Source: Chryseobacterium pennipullorum (GTDB taxonomy: Bacteria > Bacteroidota > Bacteroidia > Flavobacteriales > Weeksellaceae). From it: DNA of 64,000 bases. The stretch lies in the NCBI RefSeq assembly GCF_003384725.1, contig NZ_QNVV01000005.1, positions 124,001-188,000 of the forward strand, in the 5' to 3' direction. Shown piece after piece: positions 35,396-60,465 of the stretch. The translations under genes were made by a program, and so were the position numbers. Each line of letters begins with the position of its first letter. Position 1 is the stretch's first letter. The notes under the pieces are model-generated. The model saw only the letters and a program-made list of their open reading frames with translations, was not told where the DNA came from and made no database searches.

Positions 35396-36688
35396 TTGGA
35401 ATTTCATCCGTCAATAGAGAAAGCAGACATTCAGGACATCAAAAAGTTTCAGGAAGAAAAACTTCGTGAGCTTTTGGTTTATCTTGAAAGCAATTCGCCA
35501 TACTATAAGAAACTGTTCAAAGAAAAGGAGATCAATATTGCAGATATCCGGACTTTGGAAGATCTGAAAAAGATTCCGACGACCACAAAGAACGACCTGC
35601 AACAGCACAATCATGATTTTTTCTGCATTACACCGGATAAGATTGTTGATTACAGCACAACTTCCGGGACCTTAGGAGATCCGGTGACTTTCGGCTTATC
35701 TGATGCTGACCTGGAAAGACTGGCCTACAACGAGGCCATATCCTTTGCCTGTGCCGGCATCCGGAAAGGAGATGTTGTACAGATGATCACCACTATTGAT
35801 AAAAGGTTTATGGCTGGTCTCGCCTATTTTCTGGGGCTGAGGAAAATGGGAGCCAGTGTCGTGCGAATGGGTCCGGGAATACCGGAGCTTCAATGGGATT
35901 CTATTTTCAGATACCAGCCAAAATATCTGATCACCGTTCCCTCTTTTCTTCTAAAAATGATCGATTATGCTGAAAAGCGCGGTCTGGATTATAAAAACTC
36001 CAGTGTATACGGAGCGGTGTGTATCGGAGAAAGTATCAAAAATCAGGACTTCACAGATAATATTCTTTCACAGAAAATAAAGGAAAAGTGGAATATAAAA
36101 CTTTTTTCAACGTACGCCTCTACAGAGATGAGCACGGCCTTTACAGAATGTGAATTTCAGCAGGGAGGTCATCACCATCCTGAACTGATCATTACAGAAA
36201 TACTGGATGATAATGAAAATGCTGTAAAAGATGGAGAAAGTGGAGAACTGACCATTACCACCCTTGGTGTGGAAGCAATTCCTTTACTAAGGTTTAAAAC
36301 CGGTGATATCGTAAAAGCACACTATGAGCCTTGCCGTTGTGGAAGAAATACAATGCGCCTTGGCCCTGTAATGGGAAGGAAACAGCAGATGATTAAATAT
36401 AAAGGAACAACTTTGTATCCACCTGCGATGAATGATATTCTGAATGATTTCAATAATATTTTATGCTATCAGATCGTGATTCAGGCTAATGAAATAGGGT
36501 TGGATGAAATTATTATTAAGCTGAGTACCATTGAAGAGCGGGAAAGCTTTGTGAATGAAGTGAGAGATCATTTCCGTGCCAAATTAAGGGTCAGCCCGAA
36601 AATTGAGATCATCGATTTTGATGTTCTGTCCAAAACGGTGTACCATCCGAATTCCAGAAAGCCAATTACCTTTATTGATTTAAGATAG
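35396..36688 (+). CDS. Phenylacetate-CoA ligase-family (AMP-forming) enzyme
   Basis: 430 residues. ATP-binding motif STTSGTLGDPVTFG (about residue 85), the adenylation motifs YASTEM (about residue 242), GELTITTLGVEA and LLRFKTGDIV (about residue 303), and the C-terminal lid are as in PaaK-type ligases. It activates an aromatic or fatty acid as an acyl-AMP, then CoA or ACP thioester. The substrate is unknown. It could feed 4-coumarate from the tyrosine ammonia-lyase 2.4 kb away into the pigment pathway, a plausible but unproven link. The start is a TTG, with no in-frame ATG fitting the conserved N-terminus. Confidence 0.82.
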   Translation: MEFHPSIEKADIQDIKKFQEEKLRELLVYLESNSPYYKKLFKEKEINIADIRTLEDLKKIPTTTKNDLQQHNHDFFCITPDKIVDYSTTSGTLGDPVTFGLSDADLERLAYNEAISFACAGIRKGDVVQMITTIDKRFMAGLAYFLGLRKMGASVVRMGPGIPELQWDSIFRYQPKYLITVPSFLLKMIDYAEKRGLDYKNSSVYGAVCIGESIKNQDFTDNILSQKIKEKWNIKLFSTYASTEMSTAFTECEFQQGGHHHPELIITEILDDNENAVKDGESGELTITTLGVEAIPLLRFKTGDIVKAHYEPCRCGRNTMRLGPVMGRKQQMIKYKGTTLYPPAMNDILNDFNNILCYQIVIQANEIGLDEIIIKLSTIEERESFVNEVRDHFRAKLRVSPKIEIIDFDVLSKTVYHPNSRKPITFIDLR

Positions 36689-36732
36689 AATAAAAAAAAT
36701 GAATGATAAAAACGGAGATATACTTTTTATAA

Positions 36733-36740
36733 TATCTTTG
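36733..36740 (+). promoter_or_regulatory. -7 box for secreted 202-residue protein
   Basis: TATCTTTG, 16 nt before the ATG at 36757. No clear TTG -33 element. Confidence 0.45.
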
Positions 36741-36756
36741 GAGTAAAACTAAAACT

Positions 36757-37365
36757 ATGAAAAAACTATTATTGCTGATGGTCATCTCAATCATGACAAC
36801 AGCTTTCGGACAGGAAAAAATAGCTGTCGTATCAGGAAATCTGGGAGTGTTGAAAGGCCAGACCGAAGTAAATGTGGAGCTTAAATTCGACAATGTGTTA
36901 TTGATGAAAGAAAACATTACGGAAGCTCAATATCTTGAAAACAGGAAAAGAGATGTTTTGGCCAACCCTAAAAAAGGAGAAGTGGAATGGCAAAAATGGA
37001 TCGCAGAGTGGGAAAGGTATAAAAAGGAAGAATATGTACAGTCTTTTGCCAAGGGTCTCAATAAATCCAATAAAGAGACTGCATTTAAACAGGCTCCCTC
37101 AGCAAAATACACCTTAGTGATGGATACAAAATGGCTTTTCCCGGGCTGGCACGGAGGGCTGATTATTATGACAGCACAACTTAGCGGGAGCATCAAGCTT
37201 GTAGAGACCACTAATCCTTCCGTAGTTTTAGCAGAAGTGGAACTGAATAAATTCGATAAATTCATTCAAACCAAGGAATCCGTAATGGAGTATGGCAGAA
37301 TAGCCTCTGTATATGAATCGGCAGGAAGATATTTAGGAAAAGAAATCAGGAAATCTTTTAAATAA
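36757..37365 (+). CDS. Secreted protein of unknown function
   Basis: 202 residues, with a signal peptide (KLLLLMVISIMTTAFGQ). The middle is strongly charged (VEWQKWIAEWERYKKEE), with later beta strands (GLIIMTAQLSGSIKLVETT). I recognise no named family. It lies between the ligase gene and the pigment cluster and is closed by a strong terminator. Confidence 0.6.
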   Translation: MKKLLLLMVISIMTTAFGQEKIAVVSGNLGVLKGQTEVNVELKFDNVLLMKENITEAQYLENRKRDVLANPKKGEVEWQKWIAEWERYKKEEYVQSFAKGLNKSNKETAFKQAPSAKYTLVMDTKWLFPGWHGGLIIMTAQLSGSIKLVETTNPSVVLAEVELNKFDKFIQTKESVMEYGRIASVYESAGRYLGKEIRKSFK

Positions 37366-37371
37366 AAAAAT

Positions 37372-37742: not shown

Positions 37743-38993
37743 TCAATTTTGCTGTTGTTGCTTTTCTGATTTGATGAGGTTTGCAAGATTTTTAATTACC
37801 GTATCATGCTTTTTCACGAAAGGATTGTCTTTATTCCAGACATATCCTGCTAAAACGGCACATATCTTTTTCTTGACATCCGGATTTTCAGGCTGATGGA
37901 AAAACAGCTCCTGCAGATTTCCGGTATACCACTCTTTTACATACGTGGTGAAAACATCCACTCCGTATAAAATATAATCTGTGTATTCTGTCTGCCAGTC
38001 AATTTTTTCCCCGTTAAGCTGTCTTAAGGCCAACTTCGCAGCCAGCATTCCTGATTCTGTAGCAAAAGCCATCCCCGAAGAGAACACAGGGTCCAGGAAT
38101 TCCGAAGCATTTCCTGTTAAGGCAAATCCATCTCCAAAAAGACTTTTTACAGAACATGAATAATCCTTAAGATGTCTGGGTTCAAAGAGAAAATCTACAT
38201 CGCCAAAACGTTTTACGTAATAGTCTGAAAGAGAAATAGCTTTTCTTAAAGCTTCGGCAGTATCGCCGTTCTCAGACAGCTGGTCTATATATTCCGTAGG
38301 GCCTACGATCCCTATGCTGGTATTCCCGTTGGAAAAAGGAATCACCCAAAGCCATACTTCCGTCTCAATGATGTCAAAAGAAATTAAAGTTCCTTCTTCT
38401 CCTGGTTCTCTGTTAATATCGTTTACATGAGAAAAAATAGCTGAATGGGGTGAAAGCTTTGAAGGTTTTTCAAGGTCTAACAAACGGGGAAGAACCCTTC
38501 CGTAGCCGCTTGAATCGATCACAAATTTAGCATGGATTTCTTTGGTATCGCCATCCTTGTTTTTTATGGTGGTTACAGAATCTGTTCCATTGAAACGGAT
38601 ATCAATCACTTCCGTTTCGAATTCAAGATCAATTCCTTTATTCATTACCTCCTGGGCCAGAGTATTGTCAAAATCAGCTCTGGGTACCTGCCACGTCCAG
38701 TCCCAACCCGCTCCGAATTTGTTGCTGAAATCAAAGATGCAAACTTCATCGCCCCGAAGGAAACGTGCTCCCAGCTTTTTCTCAAATCCCATACGATCTA
38801 ATGCAGGGAAGAGGCCGGCTTCCTCAAAGTGGTCCATCACCCTTGGAATTAAGCTTTCTCCCACCACCAGTCTTGGGAATTTAGTCTTTTCAACAACTTT
38901 TACGCTGACGTTATTATTCTTCAGGTATGAAGAAGACACGCATCCGGAAGGCCCAGCCCCGATTACAAGAACGTCAACAGATTCTTTGCTCAT
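37743..38993 (-). CDS. Flavin-dependent halogenase-family oxidoreductase
   Basis: 416 residues. FAD-binding GAGPSG (about residue 12) and GESLIPRVMDHFEEAGL (about residue 46), and the halogenase-type WxWxIP motif as WLWVIP (about residue 213). A Lys in GFEKKLGARF could be the catalytic lysine that handles hypohalite. It belongs to the flavin-dependent halogenase/dehydrogenase group. In this setting it may chlorinate or oxidise the aromatic head of the pigment, but a geranylgeranyl-reductase-like role is not excluded. It diverges from the tyrosine ammonia-lyase gene with overlapping promoters. Confidence 0.78.
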   Translation of the reverse strand: MSKESVDVLVIGAGPSGCVSSSYLKNNNVSVKVVEKTKFPRLVVGESLIPRVMDHFEEAGLFPALDRMGFEKKLGARFLRGDEVCIFDFSNKFGAGWDWTWQVPRADFDNTLAQEVMNKGIDLEFETEVIDIRFNGTDSVTTIKNKDGDTKEIHAKFVIDSSGYGRVLPRLLDLEKPSKLSPHSAIFSHVNDINREPGEEGTLISFDIIETEVWLWVIPFSNGNTSIGIVGPTEYIDQLSENGDTAEALRKAISLSDYYVKRFGDVDFLFEPRHLKDYSCSVKSLFGDGFALTGNASEFLDPVFSSGMAFATESGMLAAKLALRQLNGEKIDWQTEYTDYILYGVDVFTTYVKEWYTGNLQELFFHQPENPDVKKKICAVLAGYVWNKDNPFVKKHDTVIKNLANLIKSEKQQQQN

Positions 38994-39022
38994 CTTTGAT
39001 TTTTTATTTTAATAATAACTTT

Positions 39023-39030: not shown

Positions 39031-39033
39031 CCG

Positions 39034-39041: not shown

Positions 39042-39091
39042 GTGACAAATAATTAATATTTTATAAAATTATCAACTATTACTTTTAATTG

Positions 39092-40612
39092 ATGAAAATA
39101 AATAACTTTTTAGAACTGAAAGACTTTCAAAAAATTATCATTGGGAATGAAAATATAGAACTGGATGAAACCATTTTATCAAGAGTGGATAAAAGTTTTC
39201 AGTTTTTAAAAGAATTTTCAAAAAATAAAGTAATATATGGGGTCAATACAGGTTTCGGACCGATGGCCCAGTTTAAGATCAGTGATGAAGATACCCATCA
39301 GCTGCAGTATAACCTGATCCGAAGCCACTCCTCAGGAATTGGTAATCCGTTGCCTGCCCAGGAAGTAAAAGCTTGTATGCTGGCAAGGCTCAATACCTTG
39401 TCACTGGGCAACTCAGGGGTACACCAATCTGTTATTTTTCTTCTGCAGGAGCTGATCAACAGAGATATTATTCCTCTGATTTTTGAACACGGCGGAGTGG
39501 GAGCAAGCGGAGACCTTGTTCAGCTCGCACACCTGGCCCTGGTGCTGATCGGAGAGGGAGAAGTGTTTTATAAAGGAGAAAGGAAGTCTACCAAGGATGT
39601 TTTTGCCGCAGAAGGACTGGAGCCGATAAAAGTAGAGATACGTGAGGGACTTGCTCTGATGAACGGAACTTCAGTGATGTCAGGAATCGGGATTGTGAAT
39701 GCGTATAAAGCCAACCAGCTTACGGATATTTCCATCAGACTTTCCTGTGCTATCAATGAAATTGTTCAGGCCTACGATGACCATTTATCACAAGCACTGA
39801 ACGGGACAAAAAAACATTACGGTCAGCAGAAAGTCGCTGAAAGAATGCGTGCCCATCTGGCAGACAGTAAGCTCATCAGAAAAAGAGCGGATCACCTTTA
39901 CACCCATTTCGAAGAACAGGAAAAGGTGTTCAAGGAAAAAGTACAGGAGTATTATTCTCTAAGATGTGTCCCGCAAATTCTGGGCCCGGTACTGGATACG
40001 CTCGAATATACTGAAAAAGTTCTGGAAAACGAGATCAATTCTGCCAATGACAATCCAATCATTGATGTTGAAGATCAGCATGTGTATCACGGCGGAAACT
40101 TCCATGGAGATTATATTTCTTTGGAAATGGATAAGCTTAAGATCGTCGTAACAAAGCTGACCATGCTTGCCGAAAGACAGCTGAACTATCTTCTGAATGC
40201 TAAAATCAATGAAATCTTGCCTCCTTTTGTAAATTTGGGCAAATTAGGGTTCAATTTCGGAATGCAGGGGGTTCAGTTTACGGCAACTTCAACGACTGCA
40301 GAAAGCCAGATGCTGTCGAACTCTATGTACGTTCACAGTATCCCCAACAATAATGACAATCAGGATATCGTCAGTATGGGGACCAATGCGGCGGTGATCT
40401 GCAGAAAAGTCATTGAAAATGCTTTTGAAGTATTGGCGATTGAAGCGATTACGATTATTCAGGCTGTGGAATATCTTGGTTTCCAGGATAAGGTTTCATC
40501 ATCTACCAAAGAACTGTATGATGATATCAGAAAAATTATTCCGGCGTTCTCAGATGATATGGTGATGTATCCATACCTTGAGGAGGTGAAGAAATATTTG
40601 AAGGCAATGTAA
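39092..40612 (+). CDS. Tyrosine ammonia-lyase (HAL/PAL/TAL family)
   Basis: 506 residues. The MIO cofactor forms from Ala138-Ser139-Gly140 (GGVGASGDLVQLAH). Tyr49 (VIYGVNTGFG) is the conserved active-site tyrosine. His79 in NLIRSHSSG is the position where His favours tyrosine over phenylalanine. It releases ammonia from tyrosine to give 4-coumarate, the aromatic starter of flexirubin-type pigments. Flavobacterium johnsoniae has a well-known TAL in its flexirubin locus. The start is the ATG at 39092; a TTG lies immediately before it. Confidence 0.92.
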   Translation: MKINNFLELKDFQKIIIGNENIELDETILSRVDKSFQFLKEFSKNKVIYGVNTGFGPMAQFKISDEDTHQLQYNLIRSHSSGIGNPLPAQEVKACMLARLNTLSLGNSGVHQSVIFLLQELINRDIIPLIFEHGGVGASGDLVQLAHLALVLIGEGEVFYKGERKSTKDVFAAEGLEPIKVEIREGLALMNGTSVMSGIGIVNAYKANQLTDISIRLSCAINEIVQAYDDHLSQALNGTKKHYGQQKVAERMRAHLADSKLIRKRADHLYTHFEEQEKVFKEKVQEYYSLRCVPQILGPVLDTLEYTEKVLENEINSANDNPIIDVEDQHVYHGGNFHGDYISLEMDKLKIVVTKLTMLAERQLNYLLNAKINEILPPFVNLGKLGFNFGMQGVQFTATSTTAESQMLSNSMYVHSIPNNNDNQDIVSMGTNAAVICRKVIENAFEVLAIEAITIIQAVEYLGFQDKVSSSTKELYDDIRKIIPAFSDDMVMYPYLEEVKKYLKAM

Positions 40613-40691: not shown

Positions 40692-41423
40692 ATGAAATGT
40701 GCAATTGTAACAGGAGGCTCCAGAGGAATCGGGAGAGCGATCTGTATAAAACTGGCTGAAGAAAAAAATTATCATCTACTGATTAATTATACTTCCAATG
40801 AAGCTGCGGCAAAAGAAACCCTGGCCAGGGTGGAAGAGCTTGGATCTACCGGAGAGATCCTGAAGTTTGATGTAGGAAATGCGGAAGAGACGCAGGAAGT
40901 ATTAACAGCCTGGCAGGAGAAAAATTCCGATGCCATAGTAGAGGTTATTGTTAATAACGCCGGCATTACAAGAGACGGGTTGTTTATGTGGATGCAGAAA
41001 GAGGACTGGAACAGTGTGATCAATACAAGTCTGAACGGTTTCTTCAATGTAACGAATTTCTTTATCCAGAAACTCCTTCGTAACAAATACGGACGGATCA
41101 TCAATATGGTGTCGGTTTCAGGAGTAAAAGGAACAGCAGGACAGACGAATTACTCAGCAGCAAAAGGTGCATTGGTAGGCGCGACAAAAGCCCTGGCACA
41201 GGAAGTTGCCAAAAGAAACATCACCGTAAATGCTGTGGCTCCGGGCTTTATCAGAACAGACATGACTCAGGAATTCAATGAAGATGAGCTTAAAGCGATG
41301 ATTCCTGCCAACAGATTTGGTGAAGCAGAAGAGGTCGCGGATCTTGTTGCATTTTTAGCATCCCGGAAATCTTCATACATTACCGGAGAAGTCATTAATA
41401 TTAACGGAGGAATTTATTCATAA
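40692..41423 (+). CDS. 3-oxoacyl-ACP reductase (FabG type) of the pigment cluster
   Basis: 243 residues, short-chain dehydrogenase. Cofactor motif TGGSRGIG (residues 7-14), NNAG (about residue 89), Ser in MVSVSGVKG and the YSAAK catalytic pair (about residue 154). It reduces the 3-keto group after each condensation on ACP, using NADPH. It lies between TAL and the ketosynthase and acts in polyene chain building rather than general fatty acid synthesis, judging from context. Confidence 0.9.
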   Translation: MKCAIVTGGSRGIGRAICIKLAEEKNYHLLINYTSNEAAAKETLARVEELGSTGEILKFDVGNAEETQEVLTAWQEKNSDAIVEVIVNNAGITRDGLFMWMQKEDWNSVINTSLNGFFNVTNFFIQKLLRNKYGRIINMVSVSGVKGTAGQTNYSAAKGALVGATKALAQEVAKRNITVNAVAPGFIRTDMTQEFNEDELKAMIPANRFGEAEEVADLVAFLASRKSSYITGEVININGGIYS

Positions 41424-41529: not shown

Positions 41530-42750
41530 ATGGAAAATAGGGTTGTGATTACTGGAATGGGAATTTATTCCTGCATCGGGACGTCTTTAGAGGAGGTCAC
41601 TGAATCCCTGTATCAAGGAAAATCCGGTATTGTTTTAGATGAAGACAGAAAAAAATTCGGTTTCAGGTCAGGGCTTACAGGTGTTGTTCCGAAACCGGAA
41701 CTGAAAAATCTTCTGAACAGACGCCAGCGTGTCAGCATGGGTGAGGAAAGCGAATATGCCTACCTTGCGACCCTTGATGCCCTGAAGCAGGCACATCTGA
41801 ATGAAGATTTTTTAGATACCCACGAAGTGGGAATTTTATACGGAAATGACAGTGTTTCCAAAGCAGTGGTAGAATCTATCGATATTGCAAGGGAAAAGAA
41901 AGATACAACATTGATGGGATCCGGAGCGATCTTCAAATCAATGAATTCCACAGTGACGATGAACCTTTCTACAATTTTTAAACTGAAGGGGATCAATCTT
42001 ACCATCAGCGCAGCCTGCGCAAGCGGCTCGCATTCCCTGGGGCTTGCCTTCATGATGATCAAAAACGGTTTTCAGGATATGATCATCTGTGGTGGTGCTC
42101 AGGAAACCAACAAATATTCGATGGCGAGTTTTGATGGTCTGGGCGTCTTTTCTGCAAGAGAGGATGAGCCTGTAAAAGCATCGAGACCATTTGATGCAGG
42201 AAGAGACGGCCTTATCCCAAGTGGGGGAGCCGCTACTTTAATCGTGGAGAGTCTGGAGTCTGCACAACGAAGAGGAGCTCCTGTTATTGCGGAGATTATA
42301 GGGTACGGTTTTTCTTCAAACGGCGGCCATATCTCTACTCCTAATGTTGACGGCCCGGCTTTGGCAATGGACAGAGCCCTGAAACAATCCGGCTTGAAAG
42401 CGTCTGATATCCATTATATTAATGCCCACGCTACTTCCACACCCATTGGTGATGCCAATGAAGCCAAAGCCATTTATGAAATTTTTGGAAGTGAAGTTCC
42501 TGTGAGCTCTACCAAATCAATGACCGGACACGAGTGCTGGATGGCGGGTGCAAGTGAAGTTATCTACTCTATTCTGATGATGCAGAATAACTTTGTAGCT
42601 CCTAATATCAATCTGGAAAACCCTGATAGTGAGGCGGAAAAGATAAATTTGGTCTCAAAAACAAAAAATCAAAAAATTGACGTATTTTTGTCCAATTCTT
42701 TTGGTTTTGGGGGAACCAATTCTGCACTAATAGTTAAAAAATTTGATTAA
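41530..42750 (+). CDS. Beta-ketoacyl-ACP synthase (KAS II-like)
   Basis: 406 residues. Catalytic Cys163 (ISAACASGSHS) and the two histidines in NAHATSTPIGD and SMTGHECWMAGA are present, with GFGGTNSALI near the end, so the enzyme should be active. It condenses malonyl-ACP with the growing aryl-polyene chain. Three further synthase-fold genes lie in the minus arm. The ACP gene begins 4 bases after its stop. Confidence 0.9.
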   Translation: MENRVVITGMGIYSCIGTSLEEVTESLYQGKSGIVLDEDRKKFGFRSGLTGVVPKPELKNLLNRRQRVSMGEESEYAYLATLDALKQAHLNEDFLDTHEVGILYGNDSVSKAVVESIDIAREKKDTTLMGSGAIFKSMNSTVTMNLSTIFKLKGINLTISAACASGSHSLGLAFMMIKNGFQDMIICGGAQETNKYSMASFDGLGVFSAREDEPVKASRPFDAGRDGLIPSGGAATLIVESLESAQRRGAPVIAEIIGYGFSSNGGHISTPNVDGPALAMDRALKQSGLKASDIHYINAHATSTPIGDANEAKAIYEIFGSEVPVSSTKSMTGHECWMAGASEVIYSILMMQNNFVAPNINLENPDSEAEKINLVSKTKNQKIDVFLSNSFGFGGTNSALIVKKFD

Positions 42751-42754
42751 AAAC

Positions 42755-43009
42755 ATGGAAAGGGAAAAGATTGTTGCTATTGTTAATGATTTTTTGGTAA
42801 ACGAATTCGAAGTAGACGGAGACGAAATCACTAATGATGCCAACCTTAAAAATACACTGGGCTTAGACAGCCTCGATTATATCGACATGGTCGTAGTGAT
42901 CGAATCCAATTTCGGAGTGAAATTAGGTGAAGCAGATTTCAAGAAAATGGTGACATTTGATGATTTCTATACAACGATTGAAAATAAGATTGCTGAAAAA
43001 AACGCTTAG
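42755..43009 (+). CDS. Acyl carrier protein, pigment cluster
   Basis: 84 residues. The phosphopantetheine site is Ser39 in LGLDSLDYID. It carries the growing chain for the adjacent ketosynthase. A TTG 12 bases upstream gives a longer frame overlapping the ketosynthase end, but the ATG at 42755 fits the family. It probably forms one operon with the preceding gene. Confidence 0.88.
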   Translation: MEREKIVAIVNDFLVNEFEVDGDEITNDANLKNTLGLDSLDYIDMVVVIESNFGVKLGEADFKKMVTFDDFYTTIENKIAEKNA

Positions 43010-43129: not shown

Positions 43130-44014
43130 ATGAACAAGTGGAAAGGTAAATCTAAAGGAACAGTACTCGGATACAGAATATTCGTCTGGTGTATTAGAAA
43201 TATCGGAATCAGAAGTTCATATGGGGTGCTTTACTTTGTAGCAGCCTATTATTCTCTGTTTCAGAAGAGGAGCAACCAATATATTTTTTATTATTTTCAA
43301 AAAAGACTCAACTACGGATATTGGAAGTCCAAAGTGTCGATCTTTAAAAGTTATTTTACCTTCGGAAAAGTTCTGATTGATAAGACAGCCATTTCTGCCG
43401 GACTCCGGGAAAAATACACCTATGAATTTGACGGAATTGAAAATCTGAGAAATCTTCTTGCTGCCAAAAAAGGAGGGGTTCTGATCAGTGCCCATATCGG
43501 TAATTTTGAAATTGCTGAACATTTTTTTGCAGACATTGATTTTGACTGCCAGATCAATCTGGTCACTACAGACCAAGAAGTGACCGTTATCAAAGAATAT
43601 CTGGAGAGTGTCGCCATAAAAGAGAGTAACATCAAATTTATCTACGTCAAAGAAGATATGTCTCATATTTTTGAGATCAATCAGGCGTTGTCCAATAATG
43701 AGCTGATTTGTTTTACCGGTGACCGTTACTTTGAAGGATCAAAATACCTGGAAGCAGACCTTCTCGGAAAAAGCGCCAAGTTTCCTGCCGGGCCTTTTCT
43801 TATTGCTTCCCGGCTTGGTGTTCCTGTGGTGTACGTCTATGTGATGAAAGAACGAAATCTTCATTATCACCTCTATGCCAGAGTCGCTCAAAATATCAAA
43901 AACAGAGATTCACAGGGACTTTTAGAGTCTTATGTTCAGAATCTCGAGACCATGGTGAAAAAATATCCGTTTCAATGGTTTAATTATTTCGATTTTTGGG
44001 ATGATGTAGATTAA
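43130..44014 (+). CDS. LpxL/HtrB-like lipid acyltransferase
   Basis: 294 residues. An N-terminal hydrophobic helix (IGIRSSYGVLYFVAAYYSLF) and the HX4(D/E) active-site motif HIGNFE (about residue 123) match the lysophospholipid/lipid A acyltransferase family. In pigment clusters this enzyme is thought to transfer the polyene acyl chain from ACP to a membrane or aromatic hydroxyl acceptor. The acceptor here is not known. Confidence 0.82.
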   Translation: MNKWKGKSKGTVLGYRIFVWCIRNIGIRSSYGVLYFVAAYYSLFQKRSNQYIFYYFQKRLNYGYWKSKVSIFKSYFTFGKVLIDKTAISAGLREKYTYEFDGIENLRNLLAAKKGGVLISAHIGNFEIAEHFFADIDFDCQINLVTTDQEVTVIKEYLESVAIKESNIKFIYVKEDMSHIFEINQALSNNELICFTGDRYFEGSKYLEADLLGKSAKFPAGPFLIASRLGVPVVYVYVMKERNLHYHLYARVAQNIKNRDSQGLLESYVQNLETMVKKYPFQWFNYFDFWDDVD

Positions 44015-49490: not shown

Positions 49491-49494
49491 GATC

Positions 49495-50740: not shown

Positions 50741-51332
50741 TGATCTTGGTGTTTTTGAAAACGATATGGGTAGTATCTCCTGATGCTTCTGTCATATTAA
50801 CCTGGGAAACCGTAGACTGGTTTTTTGGAAAATAAAGTTCAATCTGTCTGATGTATTTCAGCAGTTGGGTAGTTTTGGGAACGAACTTAGCAACGTGATA
50901 ATTTCCGTTTTTAAAATAGGTAACCGTGAATTCAGGATCACTGAACATGGTGCCGTTTGAGCTTCCTACAATAAGTTTATTGATCTTCTCGAATGTTTTA
51001 CTCTTCGCATCTACTGACGACTTTTTGCCCTGGTCGTTGATGAAAATTTTATTGCTTTTAAACACAATGCTGTACTGATAAGGTTTGGTGTACTTCCAGC
51101 TTAGCATATTGGGCGTCTGCAAAGACATTTTTCCATACGTTACAATATCTTTATCCAAAAAGTCCATTTTTTTGGTCTGGGTAAAGTCACTCTGAAGCGT
51201 TTTGATTTGCTTTGTTTCTGATGATATTTTGGATACGAATGCTTTGGCTTCAGCTCCCGACATTGCCGTATTTTGTGCAAAAAAGAAGCCTGAAACTAAT
51301 AAAAATGTTCCAAAAGCAATATTTTTAATCAT
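50706..51332 (-). CDS. LolA-like periplasmic carrier
   Basis: About 208 residues: signal peptide (IAFGTFLLVSGFFFAQ), then the LolA-fold pattern IKTLQSDFTQTKKMDFLDK and YGKMSLQTPNMLSWKYTKP. LolA shuttles lipoproteins across the periplasm. Cluster versions are proposed to carry the lipid-linked aryl polyene from inner to outer membrane. The start at 51332 (MIKNIAFG) is chosen by signal-peptide position. It overlaps the deacetylase gene by 8 bases. Confidence 0.85.
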   Translation of the reverse strand: MIKNIAFGTFLLVSGFFFAQNTAMSGAEAKAFVSKISSETKQIKTLQSDFTQTKKMDFLDKDIVTYGKMSLQTPNMLSWKYTKPYQYSIVFKSNKIFINDQGKKSSVDAKSKTFEKINKLIVGSSNGTMFSDPEFTVTYFKNGNYHVAKFVPKTTQLLKYIRQIELYFPKNQSTVSQVNMTEASGDTTHIVFKNTKINASIPASEFSL

Positions 51333-52146: not shown

Positions 52147-53208
52147 TTAAGCCTTCTCCAATAGGACCAGGCTATGATCACTTCCTCCAAGATGGTTATA
52201 CAGAAGGACATTTCTGATCTCTTCTTTCTGAACAGTATTGATCTTCATCACTTCCGGAATCTTCTGATCTCTGAGAATGTGACACGCCATAAATATAGAA
52301 AATCCACTGGCGGTATTGAATTCCCCACTCAGATGTTTGTAATACAGCTGTGATGAAGCTGGAAACAGCTTACTGGCTTTTGTATAGTAAGCATCTGAGC
52401 CTGCATCACCACTGAAGCCCAAAATAACAGCATCAATATCGTTATGAGAAAGGTTGTTTTGACTTAAGAAGTTCTGTATAAAAACCTCAACTTCGCCCAA
52501 CAGGACACGGTTACTGATATTGATATTCTTAAGCTTTGCGTAAGTACTTTGGGTCTTCTCTTTTCCTACCACAAAGAAGCTGGCGCCCTCCCCCCAAACT
52601 ACTCCGCTGGTGGAAGAGTTCAGATAATCTGCAGGGAGATCCGTTTCTTGTTTTATCGTATGATTGAGAACGTAGAGTTCCATTGTTCTGTCTGTTTGTT
52701 CATCGGTAGAGCCCACAAGAATATTTTGTGCTTCTCCGTCATTGATCTGAAGCTGCGCATCCAGTAATGAAAACTCCAGAGAAGAAGAGGTATTCACATA
52801 CGTGAAGTTATAAGCATGGCACTGTAATCCGAGTGCAATCTGTCCGGCAACGGTGTTGTGGGTAGACTGGATAAAAAATGTAGGGGTTAAAAATTCCTCA
52901 CCATGATCGATTACGTTTTTCAGAAATTTTTCAGAATCCTGGGAACAGCCCATTCCCGTTCCTACGATGATGGCATCCGGCTGATCGATTCCAGCTTCTT
53001 GTAATGCGTGATGAGAAGCGACAGAGCTCATTTTTACCGTTTTAGACATTCTCCTGATCATGGCAGGCGGAATAAACTCTTTATAGGGAGGTTCTATCGC
53101 TTTGATGATATTGGAAGAACTTACAGGCGTAAGGTTCTGAAGGATGTTTTCTTTTAAAGTGTCCTGAACTGAGATACAGGATGCACTGTTGATGTATACT
53201 GCGCTCAT
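52147..53208 (-). CDS. Degenerate ketosynthase, chain-length-factor-like
   Basis: 353 residues of the thiolase/KAS fold. The nucleophile Cys is replaced by Ser141 in YVNTSSSLEF, and the later active-site histidines are missing: the usual KSxxGH reads KHLSGEFNTA. It should not condense substrates alone. It overlaps (ATGA) an intact ketosynthase gene, the arrangement of a KS-alpha/KS-beta heterodimer, in which the beta subunit sets chain length. This is the most likely role. Confidence 0.82.
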   Translation of the reverse strand: MSAVYINSASCISVQDTLKENILQNLTPVSSSNIIKAIEPPYKEFIPPAMIRRMSKTVKMSSVASHHALQEAGIDQPDAIIVGTGMGCSQDSEKFLKNVIDHGEEFLTPTFFIQSTHNTVAGQIALGLQCHAYNFTYVNTSSSLEFSLLDAQLQINDGEAQNILVGSTDEQTDRTMELYVLNHTIKQETDLPADYLNSSTSGVVWGEGASFFVVGKEKTQSTYAKLKNINISNRVLLGEVEVFIQNFLSQNNLSHNDIDAVILGFSGDAGSDAYYTKASKLFPASSQLYYKHLSGEFNTASGFSIFMACHILRDQKIPEVMKINTVQKEEIRNVLLYNHLGGSDHSLVLLEKA

Positions 53209-54404
53209 GACTTTGAAAAAATTAATGTTGAGCAGTTTCCTCCAAATCCAAATGAATTGGAAAGAACATGGTTAATGCTTTTCTCTTTCAATTCGGTTAC
53301 AGGGGTAAGATCAAACTCTTCCATTTTGGTTTTGAAATTCAGGTTGGGGAAAATTAGGCTGTGCTGCATGGATAGAATAGAAAATACCGCTTCTATACCG
53401 GCTGCTGCGGCTAAAGTATGCCCTGTAAATGCTTTGGTTGAGCTGAACTCGGGCACCTGATTTTCACCGAAAATCCTGATCATTGCAATTCCCTCTGACA
53501 GATCATTGTTGGGTGTTGCAGTTCCGTGAACGTTGATATAATCGATATCATCTTTCTCCAGACCTGAAACCTTCAGAGCCTGCTGCATTGCCAGAAAAGC
53601 GCCCTGACCGTTTTCTGAAGAAGCGGTCTGATGATGAGCGTCATTGGCATTTCCATATCCGGAAAGATAGGCCAGAACAGGTTTATTTTCTTTTTTTACG
53701 GCTTCCTCGGATTCAAGAACCAGAAAAGCAGCAGCTTCTCCAAGATTCAGCCCCTTCCGGTCGTTGTCAAATGGGGTGTTGTATGAATCGGTAAGAATCA
53801 TCAGGGTATTGAAACCATTCAAAGTAAACTTGGAGAGGGAATCTGTTCCCCCGACGATAACACGGTCTAAAACACCACTTTTAATAAGTTTTGCCCCCAT
53901 CATGATGGCGTTGGCTGCGGATGAACAGGCTGTACTGATGGTAGAAACCATCCCTGTCAAACCGAGATAACCGGCAATTGCCAGTGAAGAGTTTCCCGCG
54001 TCGTGAGCATCAATGTATTTTTGCTTTTCAGGAAAGTTTTCATATGAGTAGAAATATTTTTCGGTAATATCCATCCCTCCTACACTGGTAGAAGAAATAA
54101 GCCCCGTCCTGCAGCTGTTGATATCTGAAATTCCCGCACTTTCTACCGCTTCTTTTGCTGCCATCATCCCCAATAAAGATGTTCTCGTTACGTTGTTGTC
54201 TTCTTTGAGCTGAAGTTTACGTATAAGTTCTTCATTAGATAACTTTATCTCACCGGTTTTGATGGAGCCTGCATGACGGGTTTCAAACATCTGGATGTCT
54301 GAAATGCCATGTTTCCCGGACTGCAGTGAAATAAAGTTCTCCTTCACTGTGTTTCCAATGGAGGAAATAATGCCCATTCCTGTTATGGCAATTTTTTGAC
54401 TCAT
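53205..54404 (-). CDS. Beta-ketoacyl-ACP synthase, active partner of the chain-length factor
   Basis: 399 residues, with catalytic Cys160 (ISTACSSAANAI), His in NVHGTATPNNDL and His in FTGHTLAAAAGIE, plus terminal GFGGNCSTLIF. It extends the polyene on ACP. It overlaps the degenerate synthase by 4 bases and probably forms a heterodimer with it. The ACP gene is upstream, across a palindromic repeat. Confidence 0.9.
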   Translation of the reverse strand: MSQKIAITGMGIISSIGNTVKENFISLQSGKHGISDIQMFETRHAGSIKTGEIKLSNEELIRKLQLKEDNNVTRTSLLGMMAAKEAVESAGISDINSCRTGLISSTSVGGMDITEKYFYSYENFPEKQKYIDAHDAGNSSLAIAGYLGLTGMVSTISTACSSAANAIMMGAKLIKSGVLDRVIVGGTDSLSKFTLNGFNTLMILTDSYNTPFDNDRKGLNLGEAAAFLVLESEEAVKKENKPVLAYLSGYGNANDAHHQTASSENGQGAFLAMQQALKVSGLEKDDIDYINVHGTATPNNDLSEGIAMIRIFGENQVPEFSSTKAFTGHTLAAAAGIEAVFSILSMQHSLIFPNLNFKTKMEEFDLTPVTELKEKSINHVLSNSFGFGGNCSTLIFSKS

Positions 54405-54480: not shown

Positions 54481-54738
54481 TTATTTTGTTCTGTTCTCGT
54501 CAATGTATTTAGCCATAACATCGATGGATTGAAAAATTTCCTTTCCTTTTTTAGGATCGGCTAATTTTATTCCATAATCTTTATCAAGAAGAACGATCAG
54601 CTCCAAAGCATCGATAGAGTCCAGACCCAATCCGCCTCCGAATAATGGATCTGCATCTTTGATCTCCTCTACAGAAACATCTTCAAGGTTAAGGACTTCA
54701 ATAATTTTGTGCTTCAATTCAGTTTTTAGGTTTTCCAT
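54481..54738 (-). CDS. Second acyl carrier protein of the pigment cluster
   Basis: 85 residues. Phosphopantetheine Ser in GLGLDSIDALELI (about residue 41). It differs clearly from the ACP at 42755 (GLDSLDYIDM), so the cluster carries two distinct carriers, possibly for different ketosynthases or for the head and chain parts of the product. Confidence 0.88.
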   Translation of the reverse strand: MENLKTELKHKIIEVLNLEDVSVEEIKDADPLFGGGLGLDSIDALELIVLLDKDYGIKLADPKKGKEIFQSIDVMAKYIDENRTK

Positions 54739-54748: not shown

Positions 54749-54898
54749 AATTTGAAAATATGTTAATGAGATAATTTGAAAATATAGTGAACTCTATCAG
54801 ACATTGGGTTTTAAATTAAAAAAAACTGTTAAGCAGTTATTTTACCTAATTCTAACATTTTACATTGTCGAATGAGCACATTTTCAAATTTTCAAATT
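54749..54898. repeat. Inverted AATTTGAAAAT repeat in ACP spacer
   Basis: Two direct copies of AATTTGAAAATA (54749-54760 and 54773-54784) face two copies of TTTTCAAATT-like sequence (54881-54898). They can form a long AT-rich stem over the 160-base spacer upstream of the second ACP gene. Confidence 0.5.
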
Positions 54899-55437
54899 TA
54901 TAATGTGAGCAAATATACAAAAGCTTTATAATTTTCCCGGTACAATTCTACCCATCCGCATAATACCTTTTCGGCTTTTCCGGACTTCAGGATCTGTTCA
55001 GCATAATTGTTTAAAAATTTTTCGTCAAATTCATCCAGAACAAAAAAAGCATTCTCTGTCTGCATCCGGTGCCTGATACTTATTTCTCCTACACAGATGT
55101 TGGGTAGGGTATACACAAAAACAGCCGGGCTTGGATAGAAGTTTTCCTGATCGTTAATGCTTTCCTGGTATTTGACGTCGGTATCCAGGCTTGATGACCT
55201 GTTTGCAAAAACGATGGCTGTTCTGCTGTGATCTTCATCTTTCAGAAGCATTTCAGCAGCCAGAAAGGCCAATTTACTTAAACTGTCCATCTTATGGAAC
55301 TTCGGATAGCTGATCTCCAATCCTTTATAAGCCTCTTTAGCGAATTCATGAAAATTGTCGCTCTGGCTTTCAAAAATAAGTTGGCCATCAGTGGTTATCC
55401 TGGAGTTTTCTACGATACAGGTGTGTGTGTACTTCAT
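54898..55437 (-). CDS. Half-size thiolase-fold protein (3-oxoacyl-ACP synthase-like)
   Basis: About 179 residues, half the length of a ketosynthase. It shows pieces of the N-terminal KAS half: [32 protein letters not shown] and [17 protein letters not shown]. Full His/His motifs are absent. Such short synthase-like proteins occur in aryl-polyene and flexirubin loci next to a full ketosynthase; their role is probably structural or regulatory. The start at 55437 is chosen because the upstream part overlaps the neighbouring ketosynthase gene. Confidence 0.65.
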
Positions 55438-55441
55438 CTCT

Positions 55442-56575
55442 TTAACATTTTTCCAGTATAACAGCAGCATTGCATCCCCCAAAACCAGACGCTGTCTTTA
55501 AGATATGACTGATTGTGGCAGGCTGATTTTCTTTTATAATATTCAAAGGCTGAGAAACGCCCATTTCTTTAAAGTTTTTAGAGGGGATAAGGGTTTTGTG
55601 AAGAACGCTTTCCATTGAGATAATGCTTTCCAGAAGTCCCGAGGCTCCCAGGCAGTGTCCGTAGAATCCTTTCATACTGTTTAAGGGAATTTGCTGTAAT
55701 CCCATTCTGTTGAAAGCGATGGCTTCCATTTCATCATTATATGCTGTAGCCGTACCGTGGGCTGAAATAAATCCGATCTGCTCAGGAGAAACACCGGCCT
55801 CTGTCATTGCGTTTCGGATACTGGCAAATAAGCCGTCTCCTGTTCTTGAGGGTCCGGAAATATGGTTGGCATCATTAACTGCGGAATCGCCCGCAATTTT
55901 AAATAAAAATTTTTCATCTTCAGATGGAGATGAGGTGACATAAACCGCTGCTGCGGCTTCACCAATATTGATTCCGTTTCTGTTTTTATCATAAGGCTTA
56001 CACGGTTCACTGCCGATAGCCTGGAATGAGTTGAAACCGGAAATTACAAATTCTGAAATCTCATCACCAGCCAAGACAAACGCATCACGGTATCTCCCTG
56101 TCATGATGATGTTTTTCGCAACGGCAATAGCCATCACTCCGGAAACACATGCATTGGAAACTACAATAGGTTTTGTTTTGAATCCAAAGAAATCTGCAAT
56201 TTTCTGAGCCAATTTTGATAGAAAAGCGCCTTCAGGTAGGTCAGGTTGATTTTTTAGTAAGCTGATATTTCCTTTTGTGGTTGAGAGAATAAAAGCCGTA
56301 TCTTTTGTGATGGGGTGTTGTTCAATCAACGGTCGAAGACTGAGAAGCAACATTTTTTCCAGTCTTGTAAAGTTTTGATTCCCGAAAGAACGATTGAATT
56401 CCTCATTCAGCTTTTCAGAATCTATTTTCGAAGCATAATATGCATCCTGATTTTCAATAACCTTGTGTAGAGCGACACCTGATTTTCCTTTCAAAAGGGC
56501 ATCCCAATTAGAACGTACGTCAAATCCCAGAGGAGTTACGCAGTTATAATCTGTAATATAAACGTCTTTCATCAT
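55442..56575 (-). CDS. Beta-ketoacyl-ACP synthase, third intact copy
   Basis: 377 residues. Cys143 ([13 protein letters not shown]), His in [11 protein letters not shown] and His in [13 protein letters not shown] are all present, and [11 protein letters not shown] ends the fold. It is shorter than typical KAS II and divergent from the other two, suggesting a specialised step such as priming with the aryl starter. The first two codons are both ATG (56575 and 56572). It overlaps the thioesterase gene and is 4 bases from the half-size synthase. Confidence 0.88.
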
Positions 56576-57000
56576 GCTAATCCCATTTTATCTTTCCAGT
56601 TTTGAAAAAAATCAGGATTGTAAAGACACAGGCTCCCGTCACTGTCAAGGAACACCTGAATGGTTTCCCCACTGCACACTAACTTACCGTCCTGGTTGAA
56701 AAGTTCGTATGTGTAGATCAGTTTGGCAGAAACCGTGTTCACAAAAGTGGTTACAATCTTGAATGTTTCTCCATATTTTAGCGGAAGAAAATGTTCACAG
56801 GTACTTTTTACAATGGGTGTTACATATCCGGCATTCTGAATGTCAAGATAGGTAAGGCCGTGCTGGCGTCCGAAAGCTTCTCTTCCATCCTCAAAATAGA
56901 CGATATAGTGGCCATGCCAGACAATTCCCAATGGATCGGTCTCGTTAAAACGTACTCGTACTTCTTCCGTACATGTTAATATATTCTCGTTAGACTGCAT
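56572..57000 (-). CDS. YbgC-type acyl-CoA/ACP thioesterase
   Basis: About 142 residues, 4-hydroxybenzoyl-CoA thioesterase fold. RFNETDPLGIVWHGHYIVYF (about residue 16) carries the active-site Asp and the following His/Tyr cluster. It may release the finished polyene acid or edit misloaded ACP. The start at 57000 (MQSNENILT) is inside the end of the ABC permease gene (11-base overlap), so translation is coupled. Confidence 0.85.
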   Translation of the reverse strand: MQSNENILTCTEEVRVRFNETDPLGIVWHGHYIVYFEDGREAFGRQHGLTYLDIQNAGYVTPIVKSTCEHFLPLKYGETFKIVTTFVNTVSAKLIYTYELFNQDGKLVCSGETIQVFLDSDGSLCLYNPDFFQNWKDKMGLA

Positions 57001-58258
57001 TTTGCTTTTTTTCGTAAAAAATGGAAATGGATACGGTTGCAAGGTAAAATAAAAACAGGAATACCAGTTCTTTGGCAATGCCTCCAATTCCGCTGTTTCT
57101 TAAAATAATATCGTAATAGGCATTTAAGCCCCAGTTCATAGGTGAAAATTTTGCTATGGTCTGCATGAATTCCGGCATCAGGAATACGGGTACCCAGATT
57201 CCGCCGATCGCTGCCAGAACAACTACGGAAGTGGCTCCAAAAGGAGCGGACTGTTCCTGTGTATCTGCGATTGTTCCCAGTAAAACACCAAACCCTATTG
57301 CTGCCAATCCTGCAAATAAAGTGACTATGATCAGCTGAAACATTTTTCCTGACACATCAAATGCCGGAAGATCCATATAGGGAAAGAGGTAGATTCCCAC
57401 GGCGACCATAAGCAAAAACTGAATGACACAGATGATAAGGTAGGTAAATGTCTTTCCTAAAATATGGACAAAATACGGGGTAGGGCTTATCCTTGCCCTT
57501 ACACTGGTCCCCTGGCTTTTCTCTTTAACGAGATTGATTGATAGGGGAACTACAATGAAAAAGATAGCAAAAAGGGTCCATGCCGGAACATTGTGCTGAA
57601 CAGAATTCGGCATTACGTCCATTTCTCCTTTTTTTGGAGTAATCTCTTTAAAGCTGATCAGGTTTTTGTTTTCTTCAAGGTTTTCTTCGGTTCCCAGCTG
57701 ATCCTGGAATGCTTTGTAAATCTTTTTGTTCTCAATCTCAAAAACCATTTTGTTGACAGAATTCATCACGGAATTTTTGAACCCTATATTGGTGGCAGGG
57801 TCAAAGTACAAATGAATTTCTTTGGCTTTTGGAGCAGCTGTTTTTGCTTTTGCAGAGTCACCTTCGAGCCCGAATGAGCTTACAATGGTCTGAACTTTAG
57901 CATCAATATTGGAATTTAAATCTTTGGTTAAATTTTCAGGAATGACGATGGCCATTTGGTAATCTCCGGCAAAGACAGCCTCCTGAGCGGATTTCTCACT
58001 GAAATTGGTCAGCAGCTGAAAAGTCTTGCTGTTTTCCAGCTCGGCTTTTATATTCTTTGAGACTTCAGATTGATCCTGATCAATAAAAATAATCGGGATT
58101 TTTGAGCCTTCAAGGTTTTTAAAGGTGGAATCCTGAATCAGGGTAATGGTAATAATCAAAAGCAAAGGCATGACAAAGATGATCACAATACCTCCGATAT
58201 CTCTCTTCAACAGAAGGATTTCCTTGATGAAGCTTCTCCATAGTTTATACAACAACAT
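56990..58258 (-). CDS. ABC-2-type transporter permease
   Basis: 422 residues. An N-terminal membrane helix (IGGIVIIFVMPLLLIITITLI) and a large extracytoplasmic region (about residues 45-230) precede five or so C-terminal helices (TLFAIFFIVVPLSINL; FTYLIICVIQFLLMVAVGIYL; LVFLFLFYLATVSISIFY). This layout is typical of ABC-2 exporters of lipids and drugs. With the adjacent ATPase it likely exports the pigment or its lipid carrier. It overlaps the ATPase gene by 14 bases. Confidence 0.88.
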   Translation of the reverse strand: MLLYKLWRSFIKEILLLKRDIGGIVIIFVMPLLLIITITLIQDSTFKNLEGSKIPIIFIDQDQSEVSKNIKAELENSKTFQLLTNFSEKSAQEAVFAGDYQMAIVIPENLTKDLNSNIDAKVQTIVSSFGLEGDSAKAKTAAPKAKEIHLYFDPATNIGFKNSVMNSVNKMVFEIENKKIYKAFQDQLGTEENLEENKNLISFKEITPKKGEMDVMPNSVQHNVPAWTLFAIFFIVVPLSINLVKEKSQGTSVRARISPTPYFVHILGKTFTYLIICVIQFLLMVAVGIYLFPYMDLPAFDVSGKMFQLIIVTLFAGLAAIGFGVLLGTIADTQEQSAPFGATSVVVLAAIGGIWVPVFLMPEFMQTIAKFSPMNWGLNAYYDIILRNSGIGGIAKELVFLFLFYLATVSISIFYEKKQNAV

Positions 58259-59003
58259 CTCTTAATTCTTTTCCGGTTAATGAAATAAAAACATCCTCAA
58301 GGTTTTCTGCACTGGCTACTCTGTTTACCAATTCTTCAGGGGTTCCTACGGCATGAATTTTTCCATGGTCGATAATTGCAATTTTGGTACAGAACTCTTC
58401 AGCTTCTGATAAGTGGTGGGAAGTATAGATGATACAGGTTCCCTGTTTATTTAAATCCAGGAGATAGTCAATAATAGCCTTTTTAGACTGAACATCAACT
58501 CCAACAGTGGGTTCGTCCAGGAATAAGACTTTAGGATTGTGAAGTGTTCCTGCGATGAGGTTGCATCGGCGCTTCATTCCTCCCGAAAACTGTCCTACCT
58601 GTTTATTGGCAAATTTTGAAAGTCCCATAATTTCCAGGGACTCATCAATGGCCTTCTTTAGCTGGTTGTGCTTCAAACCATACAGACTTCCGAAAAACAT
58701 CAGGTTTTCTTTAGCTGTGAGAGTAGGGTACAAGGCATATTCCTGAGGAACAATTCCGACAATCTGTCTGATTTTAAAACCATCTTTTTGCGGGGATAGC
58801 CCATTGATCTTAAACGTTCCTGAGGTAGGCTTTATCAATCCTGAAAGCATAGAGATCAATGTGGTTTTGCCAGCTCCATTGGGGCCAAGAATTCCGTAGA
58901 TCTCATTTTTGCTGATATTCAATGTAATATCATTTACAGAAAACTCATCAGAATTTTTGTATTTTTTATATAAGCCCGTAATTTCAATCATATTCTCTGC
59001 CAT
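58245..59003 (-). CDS. ABC transporter ATP-binding protein
   Basis: 252 residues. Walker A GPNGAGKTT (about residue 39), signature QFSGGMKRR (about residue 138), Walker B VLFLDEPTVGVD (about residue 158) and the switch His in YTSHHLSEAEE. It powers the permease encoded next. It belongs to the pigment exporter module. Confidence 0.93.
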   Translation of the reverse strand: MAENMIEITGLYKKYKNSDEFSVNDITLNISKNEIYGILGPNGAGKTTLISMLSGLIKPTSGTFKINGLSPQKDGFKIRQIVGIVPQEYALYPTLTAKENLMFFGSLYGLKHNQLKKAIDESLEIMGLSKFANKQVGQFSGGMKRRCNLIAGTLHNPKVLFLDEPTVGVDVQSKKAIIDYLLDLNKQGTCIIYTSHHLSEAEEFCTKIAIIDHGKIHAVGTPEELVNRVASAENLEDVFISLTGKELRDVVV

Positions 59004-59004
59004 A

Positions 59005-60000
59005 TCAGATCGCTTTTCTCAGTTTTTTATAGAAAGCTTCTTCAAGATCTGCAATATGCAGCATCGTTTTAGACAATTCGTTATAGATATTGCTTTTGGA
59101 GTTTCTGTTTTTGTAGACTCTGGCAATATCTACCGCAAAATCTCTCCACAGATCCCCTATTGCAGTAATTTCCTTTGACAGTTCCTTCAATTCGTCATTT
59201 TTTAGGATTACTGCTGCTTCCTGAAGAAATGCGCCGTAGATAAACCTGAAGCCGCCACCGCCGGTTCCTATTTCCTCCTGCATTCTGATCAGTTGCCCCA
59301 GATAATGGTTGGTTACTTTTGTGCCTTTCTTTTCTGCCCATTTCGGAATGCTCTTCGCGACCCATCTCATGGCTTTCACACCGATAAGCGGTACCGGTGC
59401 CAGCATATTTTTGCAGGTATCCCTGATTCCTTTTTTGATGGCTTCTTCCAGATTGATATTTTCAGGGACATACACAGGATAGTACATATGGCCTTTTGGA
59501 GGAAGTGCCCCTTTGGCATATCGCACTTTTTCCAGTTCTGCTTCGGAGAGCGAGGTTACATAATCCATCACCGGATCACTGATGAGAAATTGTCCGTTTT
59601 CTTTTCCGTATACTACCAGGTTGTGGGCATTGAAATGGAACTTATATTCTTCCGGGAAATAAGTAAGGTTGAAAACTCCTACCTGAAGTCCTGTTGGGAT
59701 GTTTTGTTCCAGATTTCTTTCCAAAGCCTTTTGGGCATCCTTAGGATTTGAGAATTTTTCTCTTTTTATTTTAATGCCTAACCTTTTGGCTGCTTTACTG
59801 AAAATTGCTCCTGGCATAGGGCGGTAGCTGAAACCCGGTGCAAAATTCACCTTTAGAAAAGGGAGGTAAACAAAGAACAGCCCGGATCCGATCCCGAAGA
59901 TCATCGGTTCACTGAGTTTCAGTCCTTTATTAAGCAGTAGATTAGAGGCAACACCGTTTTCGCAATGTGCAGTCTGATGGTGTTCAAAGTTTAGTTTCAT
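59005..60000 (-). CDS. BtrH-type acyltransferase/peptidase-like protein
   Basis: 331 residues. The N-terminal BtrH domain shows a Cys-protease-like triad: Cys13 (QTAHCENGVASNLL), His126 (FNAHNLVVYG) and Asp142 (LISDPVMD). The C-terminal half (about residue 175 onward) is helical. BtrH transfers an acyl chain from ACP in butirosin synthesis, so this enzyme may move the aryl-polyene from ACP to its acceptor. It lies 1 base upstream of the ATPase gene. Confidence 0.8.
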   Translation of the reverse strand: MKLNFEHHQTAHCENGVASNLLLNKGLKLSEPMIFGIGSGLFFVYLPFLKVNFAPGFSYRPMPGAIFSKAAKRLGIKIKREKFSNPKDAQKALERNLEQNIPTGLQVGVFNLTYFPEEYKFHFNAHNLVVYGKENGQFLISDPVMDYVTSLSEAELEKVRYAKGALPPKGHMYYPVYVPENINLEEAIKKGIRDTCKNMLAPVPLIGVKAMRWVAKSIPKWAEKKGTKVTNHYLGQLIRMQEEIGTGGGGFRFIYGAFLQEAAVILKNDELKELSKEITAIGDLWRDFAVDIARVYKNRNSKSNIYNELSKTMLHIADLEEAFYKKLRKAI

Positions 60001-60060
60001 TGAGCTTGTATCTTTTTCCTTGGAAATTTGGATTATTGGATGTTATACATCCTGTACCAT

Positions 60061-60465
60061 TTATTTTCCATCGAATTTTTTTAATTCATCCACTGAAATT
60101 CCGAATGCATCAGCATACTTTTTCAGTGCATTTTCGCTTAGTGTTTTAAATATACCTGGTTTAAAATGTCTTTTTACTCTCCATTGCCACATTCCCACAT
60201 ACGAGGCAAGGACAGCCGGATCCATTTTATTCAGTTCCATAAAATAAAGAATCGGACTTGCTGTATTATTAGCGACCTGTTGCCTGGCTTCCTCAATTCT
60301 TTCATGAATAAGTTCCATAGATTCGTCCAAAGCAGCTTTCTTCGCATCCCAGCCTGTACTGTTTGCGGTTGTATAATTATCATTGTCATCCGTCACATAC
60401 AGAACTTCAGTCATATTGGCGGATTTCAGGTTACTTTCGTCTTGGGGTAGGTCTTGTTTTTTCAT
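60061..60465 (-). CDS. Conserved small protein at the start of the minus arm
   Basis: 134 residues, soluble. It is acidic at the N-terminus, then helical (AALDESMELIHERIEEARQQ), ending with VKRHFKPGIFKTLSENALKK and YADAFGISVDELKKF. The C-terminal helices recall part of an HTH regulator but lack a complete motif. It is the first gene of the minus arm (it lies upstream of the BtrH-type gene). No function can be assigned. Confidence 0.65.
   Translation of the reverse strand: MKKQDLPQDESNLKSANMTEVLYVTDDNDNYTTANSTGWDAKKAALDESMELIHERIEEARQQVANNTASPILYFMELNKMDPAVLASYVGMWQWRVKRHFKPGIFKTLSENALKKYADAFGISVDELKKFDGK

Follow-up and report, generated by a model that had tools for sequence, protein, structure and literature searches.

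A flexirubin-type gene cluster of Chryseobacterium pennipullorum with darB and a putative darA just past the edge of the analysed window

The stretch analysed here, which we call the window, comprises 64,000 nucleotides of the genome of Chryseobacterium pennipullorum (positions 124001-188000 of contig NZ_QNVV01000005.1, hereafter C5; the assembly, 4.80 Mb in 61 contigs, is listed as 100% complete). Between window positions 35,396 and 60,465 it carries what Pfam and NCBIfam searches of the window proteins mark as a flexirubin-type aryl-polyene gene set, laid out as two converging arms; the ‘dar block’, with darB and a putative darA, follows beyond the window end and is split from darG by genes for an AraC-family regulator, an erythromycin-esterase-like protein (Ere) and an M16 peptidase. 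An earlier note, made from the letters of the window, had already identified the locus as flexirubin type, and rightly so: FlxY, FlxA, LolA2, LolB2, DarH and DarG all exceed the curated NCBIfam cut-offs, and its inventory of tyrosine ammonia-lyase, acyl carrier proteins, ketosynthases, reductase, dehydratase, thioesterase, LolA2, ABC exporter and BtrH-related protein is found again, with several Pfam or NCBIfam assignments (e.g. dehydratase, ABC permease and ABC ATPase) falling below the curated NCBIfam cut-offs. Gene identities and positions are established by sequence. The same note took the locus to be one without darA and darB. We predict, with a probability of roughly 0.96, that it is an ordinary cluster for flexirubin biosynthesis in a Chryseobacterium-like bacterium, which the window edge truncates.

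The minus arm had been thought to end at 60,465. What lies there is DarG, a dialkylresorcinol/flexirubin biosynthesis protein (60061..60465, minus strand; NCBIfam NF053545, 200 bits, cut-off 170), and the arm resumes 6,059 bases further on, at window-equivalent 66,525-73,151 of the minus strand, where reading frames and family matches mark two dehydratase-like genes, darB and an MMPL gene, with the putative darA beside darB. Read from the far end of the minus strand of C5:183001-203000, these encode a 1,217-residue MMPL/acyltransferase, a protein of 304 residues, a ketosynthase of 379 residues and two small dehydratase-like proteins. The ketosynthase gene is darB (C5:191,400-192,539, or window-equivalent 67,400-68,539, minus strand), whose product scores 633 bits on the NCBIfam DarB model (cut-off 550, match C5:191403-192533), is the one match over that cut-off in the whole genome, and has the ketosynthase StlD as its nearest solved structures. 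A genome search for the C-terminal domain of 3-ketoacyl-acyl carrier protein synthase III (KAS III) gave five matches, including a minus-strand one at C5:191439-191690; the KAS III genes elsewhere in the genome, on contigs C33, C3, C13 and C15, were considered as DarB and rejected, those on C33 and C3 scoring at most 51 bits against the DarB model and those on C13 and C15 not being among its matches.

The 304-residue protein (window-equivalent 68,541-69,455, minus strand) is the putative DarA. We call it so because its gene lies directly upstream of darB, because the pair recurs in relatives, because it is the single match in the genome, and because a Streptomyces homologue is encoded beside a KAS III gene. 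That homologue (29% identical) is the one inspected from a plasmid search with the candidate, which returned only three, all from Streptomyces, 28-29% identical and annotated as hypothetical. In published work, cited here and below from openly available excerpts, the locus tags of darA and darB are next to each other in both Chitinophaga pinensis (PMC3992019) and Azoarcus (PMC3949708). Both reading frames in C. pennipullorum are open over their full length.

The earlier note had suggested a whole-genome search for DarA and DarB and had counted a find just outside the window as evidence against its own claim; run here, the search gave one DarB over the cut-off and one DarA match, both just outside the window, which is the sequence half of that evidence. 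It was correct that neither gene lies inside the window, both matches falling beyond base 64,000, and they are absent from it because its edge cut the locus. That they ‘lie elsewhere’, one of the two options it offered, holds in the trivial sense of 3.4 to 5.5 kb past the window end; they are on the same contig and strand and, in relatives, in the same locus. With darB starting 3.4 kb beyond the edge and the putative darA adjoining it, the description of the locus as lacking darA and darB is refuted at the level of sequence, and C. pennipullorum, having both genes, falls outside the class of dar-free loci defined by the absence of both from the genome. The apparent absence of the two genes came from the placing of the window edge, and a false lead is removed.

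The pair recurs in relatives. Among the related loci compared, which are the best 80 of 162 relatives by DarH in a contig scan (91-99% identical, nearly all titled Chryseobacterium or Epilithonimonas), 76 have a complete darB together with a darA match, both located upstream of darG and in its orientation; coverage of darA is 88% in one stretch (L010) and is listed as 100% in the rest. Of the 80 stretches, 28 gave no M16 gene, and in these the gap between the dehydratase gene and darG is 5-1,147 bases, with at most 26 bases from dar block to darG in 15 of them; an M16 gene intervenes in 49, with gaps of 3,303-8,213 bases, and the remaining three do not extend to the dar block. Members of the genus commonly have the dar block set apart from darG. 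The stretch from C. herbae pc1-10 (L077) carries both darA and darB, and for this strain an arylpolyene-resorcinol region has been reported together with a KOH colour shift that did not change back with HCl (PMC10459008).

In C. pennipullorum the 6,059 bases between the dar block and darG hold three plus-strand genes, those for the AraC-family regulator (60746..61567; Pfam HTH_AraC) and Ere (61634..62902; Pfam Erythro_esteras), both inside the locus and not part of the pathway, and the M16 peptidase gene (63181..64000; reading frames and family matches), which starts in the window and runs past it. With tblastn (E <= 1e-5), AraC and Ere were both unmatched throughout the 80 related stretches. 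An Ere relative at E <= 1e-60 occurs in 10 of 98 genomes of the genus, C. pennipullorum included; in G375 the AraC-Ere pair sits at the same spot, between darG and M16, and in G361, the only one checked of the other eight, the 4-kb stretch has no match to darG, AraC or M16. The pair is a small local peculiarity that C. pennipullorum has in common with G375.

It might be argued that this AraC, Ere and M16 separation leaves the dar genes present but decoupled or silent, with free polyene accumulating. The gap is indeed long beside the 5-1,147 bases of the 28 relatives without M16, and the AraC and Ere genes are unmatched in all 80; yet the 49 relatives with M16 have wide gaps of their own, four FlxA-carrying genomes have DarB 68 to 646 kb from FlxA, and C. 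pinensis, with its flx and dar sets at separate loci, still makes flexirubin (PMC3992019). We consider such decoupling very improbable, and retain the reading of an ordinary flexirubin cluster. Some observations nevertheless weigh against that reading. The 304-residue candidate has no match in Pfam or NCBIfam, and its identification as DarA, by position and homology only, is putative. Four of the 80 related stretches have no full darB (one has a partial gene at the stretch edge, three have none); true loss of darB in these four (L037, L055, L060 and L082) was considered and rejected, as all four genomes encode a DarB over the cut-off. Lastly, the dar block and the darG block are probably transcribed apart here, because three plus-strand genes lie between them.

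The plus arm begins with FlxY, a putative 4-coumarate-CoA ligase (35396..36688; NCBIfam NF053551, 730 bits, cut-off 520), followed by a hypothetical protein of uncertain membership in the locus (36757..37365), which has no match in Pfam or NCBIfam and no tblastn match in any of the six other loci compared. FlxA, the tyrosine ammonia-lyase (39089..40612; NCBIfam NF053541, 902 bits, cut-off 700), precedes a FabG-like ketoreductase (40692..41423; Pfam adh_short_C2), a ketosynthase (41530..42750; Pfam), an acyl carrier protein (42743..43009; Pfam PP-binding), an LpxL-type acyltransferase (43130..44014; Pfam Lip_A_acyltrans), an FAD-dependent carotenoid-isomerase/desaturase-like protein (44188..45705; Pfam, with NCBIfam below cut-off) and an AAT-family acyltransferase (45728..47419; Pfam AAT), all on the plus strand. 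Divergent from flxA, on the minus strand, is a gene for a flavin-dependent halogenase-like protein (37743..38993; Pfam Trp_halogenase), which among solved chains comes closest to 3nix (487 bits) and next to flavin-dependent halogenases (at most 136 bits). This gene is present in all six other loci compared, dar-containing and dar-free alike, adjoining flxA in five and lying about 5.6 kb off in G221; because it is kept with or without dar genes, the protein, if it acts on the pigment at all, probably acts on the polyene half.

Along the minus arm, with every gene on the minus strand, a family 2 glycosyltransferase with DUF2062 (47460..48632; Pfam) and a hypothetical protein of the operon (48637..49113; no family, matched in G090 and in none of five dar-free loci described below) are followed by a FabZ-like dehydratase (49110..49529; NCBIfam, below cut-off) and an outer-membrane beta-barrel protein (49495..50094; Pfam OMP_b-brl_2), whose membership in the locus is uncertain and which has no tblastn match in any of the six other loci compared. 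Beyond these lie LolB2 (50105..50740; NCBIfam NF053540, 248 bits, cut-off 60) and LolA2 (50706..51359; NCBIfam NF053544, 249 bits, cut-off 125), both of flexirubin type, a polysaccharide-deacetylase-like protein (51325..52080; NCBIfam PdaB-like, below cut-off), a degenerate, chain-length-factor-like ketosynthase (52147..53208; NCBIfam), a second ketosynthase (53205..54404; NCBIfam), an acyl carrier protein (54481..54738; NCBIfam NF006617, over cut-off), a conserved hypothetical protein of the operon (54898..55482; no family, found in all six other loci compared) and a further ketosynthase (55442..56575; NCBIfam). A YbgC/FadM-type thioesterase (56572..57087; NCBIfam TIGR00051, over cut-off), an ABC-2 type permease (56990..58258; NCBIfam, below cut-off), an ABC exporter ATPase (58245..59003; NCBIfam DrrA-like, below cut-off) and the BtrH-related acyltransferase DarH (59005..60000; NCBIfam NF053550, 508 bits, cut-off 300) lead up to DarG. 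An alignment of the four ketosynthases finds Cys-His-His, which we take to be the catalytic motif, in the proteins at 41530-42750, 53205-54404 and 55442-56575, whereas all three residues are absent from that at 52147-53208, bearing out the count of three intact and one degenerate made from the letters alone; the two acyl carrier proteins counted there are likewise confirmed, at 42743-43009 by Pfam and at 54481-54738 by NCBIfam.

From published work on Chitinophaga and Flavobacterium we infer the enzymatic steps that such a gene set would carry out. FlxA would convert tyrosine to 4-coumarate, which FlxY would activate, and the type II ketosynthases, acyl carrier proteins, reductase and dehydratases would extend this starter into an aryl-polyene; DarB and DarA would make a dialkylresorcinol, to be esterified to the polyene, and the Lol proteins and the ABC exporter may carry material to the outer membrane.

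Across the Flavobacteriales, FlxA and DarB largely occur together. In a family sample of 118 genomes (at least 95% complete), FlxA exceeds its cut-off in 46, with a DarB match at E <= 1e-100 in 45 of these, the match in one of the 45 (G090) being a fragment only. In an order sample of 294 genomes, where DarB was scored on at most six candidates per genome, FlxA exceeds its cut-off in 104 and DarB is matched at E <= 1e-60 in 101. FlxA accompanies it in 100 of these, the exception being G322, whose DarB match is below cut-off. Pooled, there are 122 distinct FlxA genomes, and 117 have a DarB match, always on the contig of FlxA and in 113 cases within 40 kb of it; the distance in C. pennipullorum is 28 kb. 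In G090 (same genus, single contig) darA and darB (L101 4969-7020) are each split over two reading frames, the other matched cluster genes being unbroken; eight consecutive A adjoin the break in darA, no such run adjoins that in darB, and the breaks may be real decay or sequencing error. With its dar genes present in broken frames, G090 was left out of the dar-free count, and neither G111, which has one in-frame stop in darB, nor G311, which has a partial DarB match only (2-323 of 377), was counted as dar-free. Separately, in each of G011 and G051, of one genus, DarB occurs twice over the cut-off, the two genes lying about 2.6 kb from each other.

By gene content, dar-free loci do exist outside C. 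pennipullorum, in five of the 122 FlxA genomes (G118, G178, G221, G300 and G321), which represent five genera and three families. A repeat search of these genomes, at the default limit and scoring every candidate, gave only weak DarB matches (<37 bits) and no DarH, and three DarB-positive genomes in the same search all gave DarH. In the 36-40 kb of each locus, tblastn (E <= 1e-5) with the C. pennipullorum proteins, a search that diverged copies could escape, matched none of darA, darB, darG, darH, the ABC permease and the ABC ATPase in any of the five; the genome-wide search covered the DarB and DarH family models in all five genomes and DarA in G118. All five loci keep the halogenase-like protein, FlxA, FabG, an acyltransferase, the thioesterase, a small dehydratase, two ketosynthases and an acyl carrier protein, as well as the degenerate ketosynthase, the deacetylase, LolA2, a second dehydratase, the glycosyltransferase, MMPL, the AAT protein and FlxY. 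Such loci lend some background to the other option of the earlier note, that C. pennipullorum esterifies its aryl-polyene with something different from dialkylresorcinol. Its genome gives this option no support, however, with darB and darA full-length and open on the same contig and with DarG, DarH and the ABC exporter all inside the window, and we hold it to be highly unlikely; our reading remains that of an ordinary flexirubin cluster through which the window edge cuts.

These natural dar-free relatives offer a modest lead for assigning transport and acyltransferase genes to the resorcinol or the polyene half of flexirubin. In G111, from the genus of G118, darA, darB, two dehydratases, darG, darH and both ABC genes form one run in the interval between acyltransferase and thioesterase; in G118 one dehydratase stands alone in that interval. 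In G189, DarH adjoins DarB, 354 kb from FlxA. The dar-free loci, G189 and the Azoarcus cluster described below together suggest a place in the resorcinol half for darG, darH and the ABC exporter. More tentatively, and at somewhat less than even odds, darA, darB, darG, darH and the ABC-2 exporter might be a resorcinol module gained or lost as a unit, with DarH joining the resorcinol to the polyene (an ester-forming role that we infer), the ABC pair handling the resorcinol or the ester, and the dar-free loci putting their polyene on another acceptor via the retained acyltransferases. We lower these odds because three or four of the five dar-free loci are also without some polyene-arm genes: G178, G300 and G321 (the f3 loci) have no best match for the ketosynthase at 41530, its acyl carrier protein or the carotenoid-isomerase-like gene, and a shorter match for MMPL, and LolB2 is matched in G118 only, both of which weigh against a module. 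The controls were the loci of G111 and G090 and, for DarB and DarH only, G189, none of them a dar-containing locus from the families of the f3 loci. Published work already recognises aryl-polyene clusters without resorcinol genes as a class; no description of darG, darH and the exporter being absent together was found in the excerpts and listings of open-licence literature.

Among known systems, the locus is close to the flx and dar genes described by Schoner et al. (2014; PMC3992019), which in C. pinensis are located separately (flx, Cpin_1853-1877; dar, Cpin_6850/6851) and in Flavobacterium johnsoniae UW101 include dar inside a 37-kb cluster. It has in common with these the tyrosine ammonia-lyase, CoA ligase, ketosynthases, reductases, dehydratases and thioesterases, and also the deacetylase, LolA, glycosyltransferase, exporter and DarA/DarB; compared by named genes rather than gene by gene, it differs in its two converging arms and in the dar block being split from darG. 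The arcuflavin dialkylresorcinol (DAR) cluster of Azoarcus sp. BH72 similarly lists darA and darB with BtrH-like and ABC transporter genes, although its polyene head comes from chorismate-derived hydroxybenzoate and not from tyrosine, and gene letters differ, the BtrH-like gene being darE in Azoarcus and DarH in NCBIfam (PMC3949708). In marine Flavobacteriia the DAR genes have been treated apart from the aryl-polyene genes, with aryl-polyenes converted to flexirubin-type pigments where DAR proteins are present (PMC5932025), and aryl-polyene clusters of Flavobacteriaceae have been tabulated apart from aryl-polyene-resorcinol clusters, in genomes that may have dar genes elsewhere (PMC7440613). 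Also close are the arylpolyene-resorcinol (flexirubin) clusters of Chryseobacterium itself, of the same kind and from the same genus (PMC8151938, PMC10459008), from which, as excerpted, we see no difference; in one report the core genes are three ketosynthases and one of KAS III type, with conservation across four genomes (PMC8151938).

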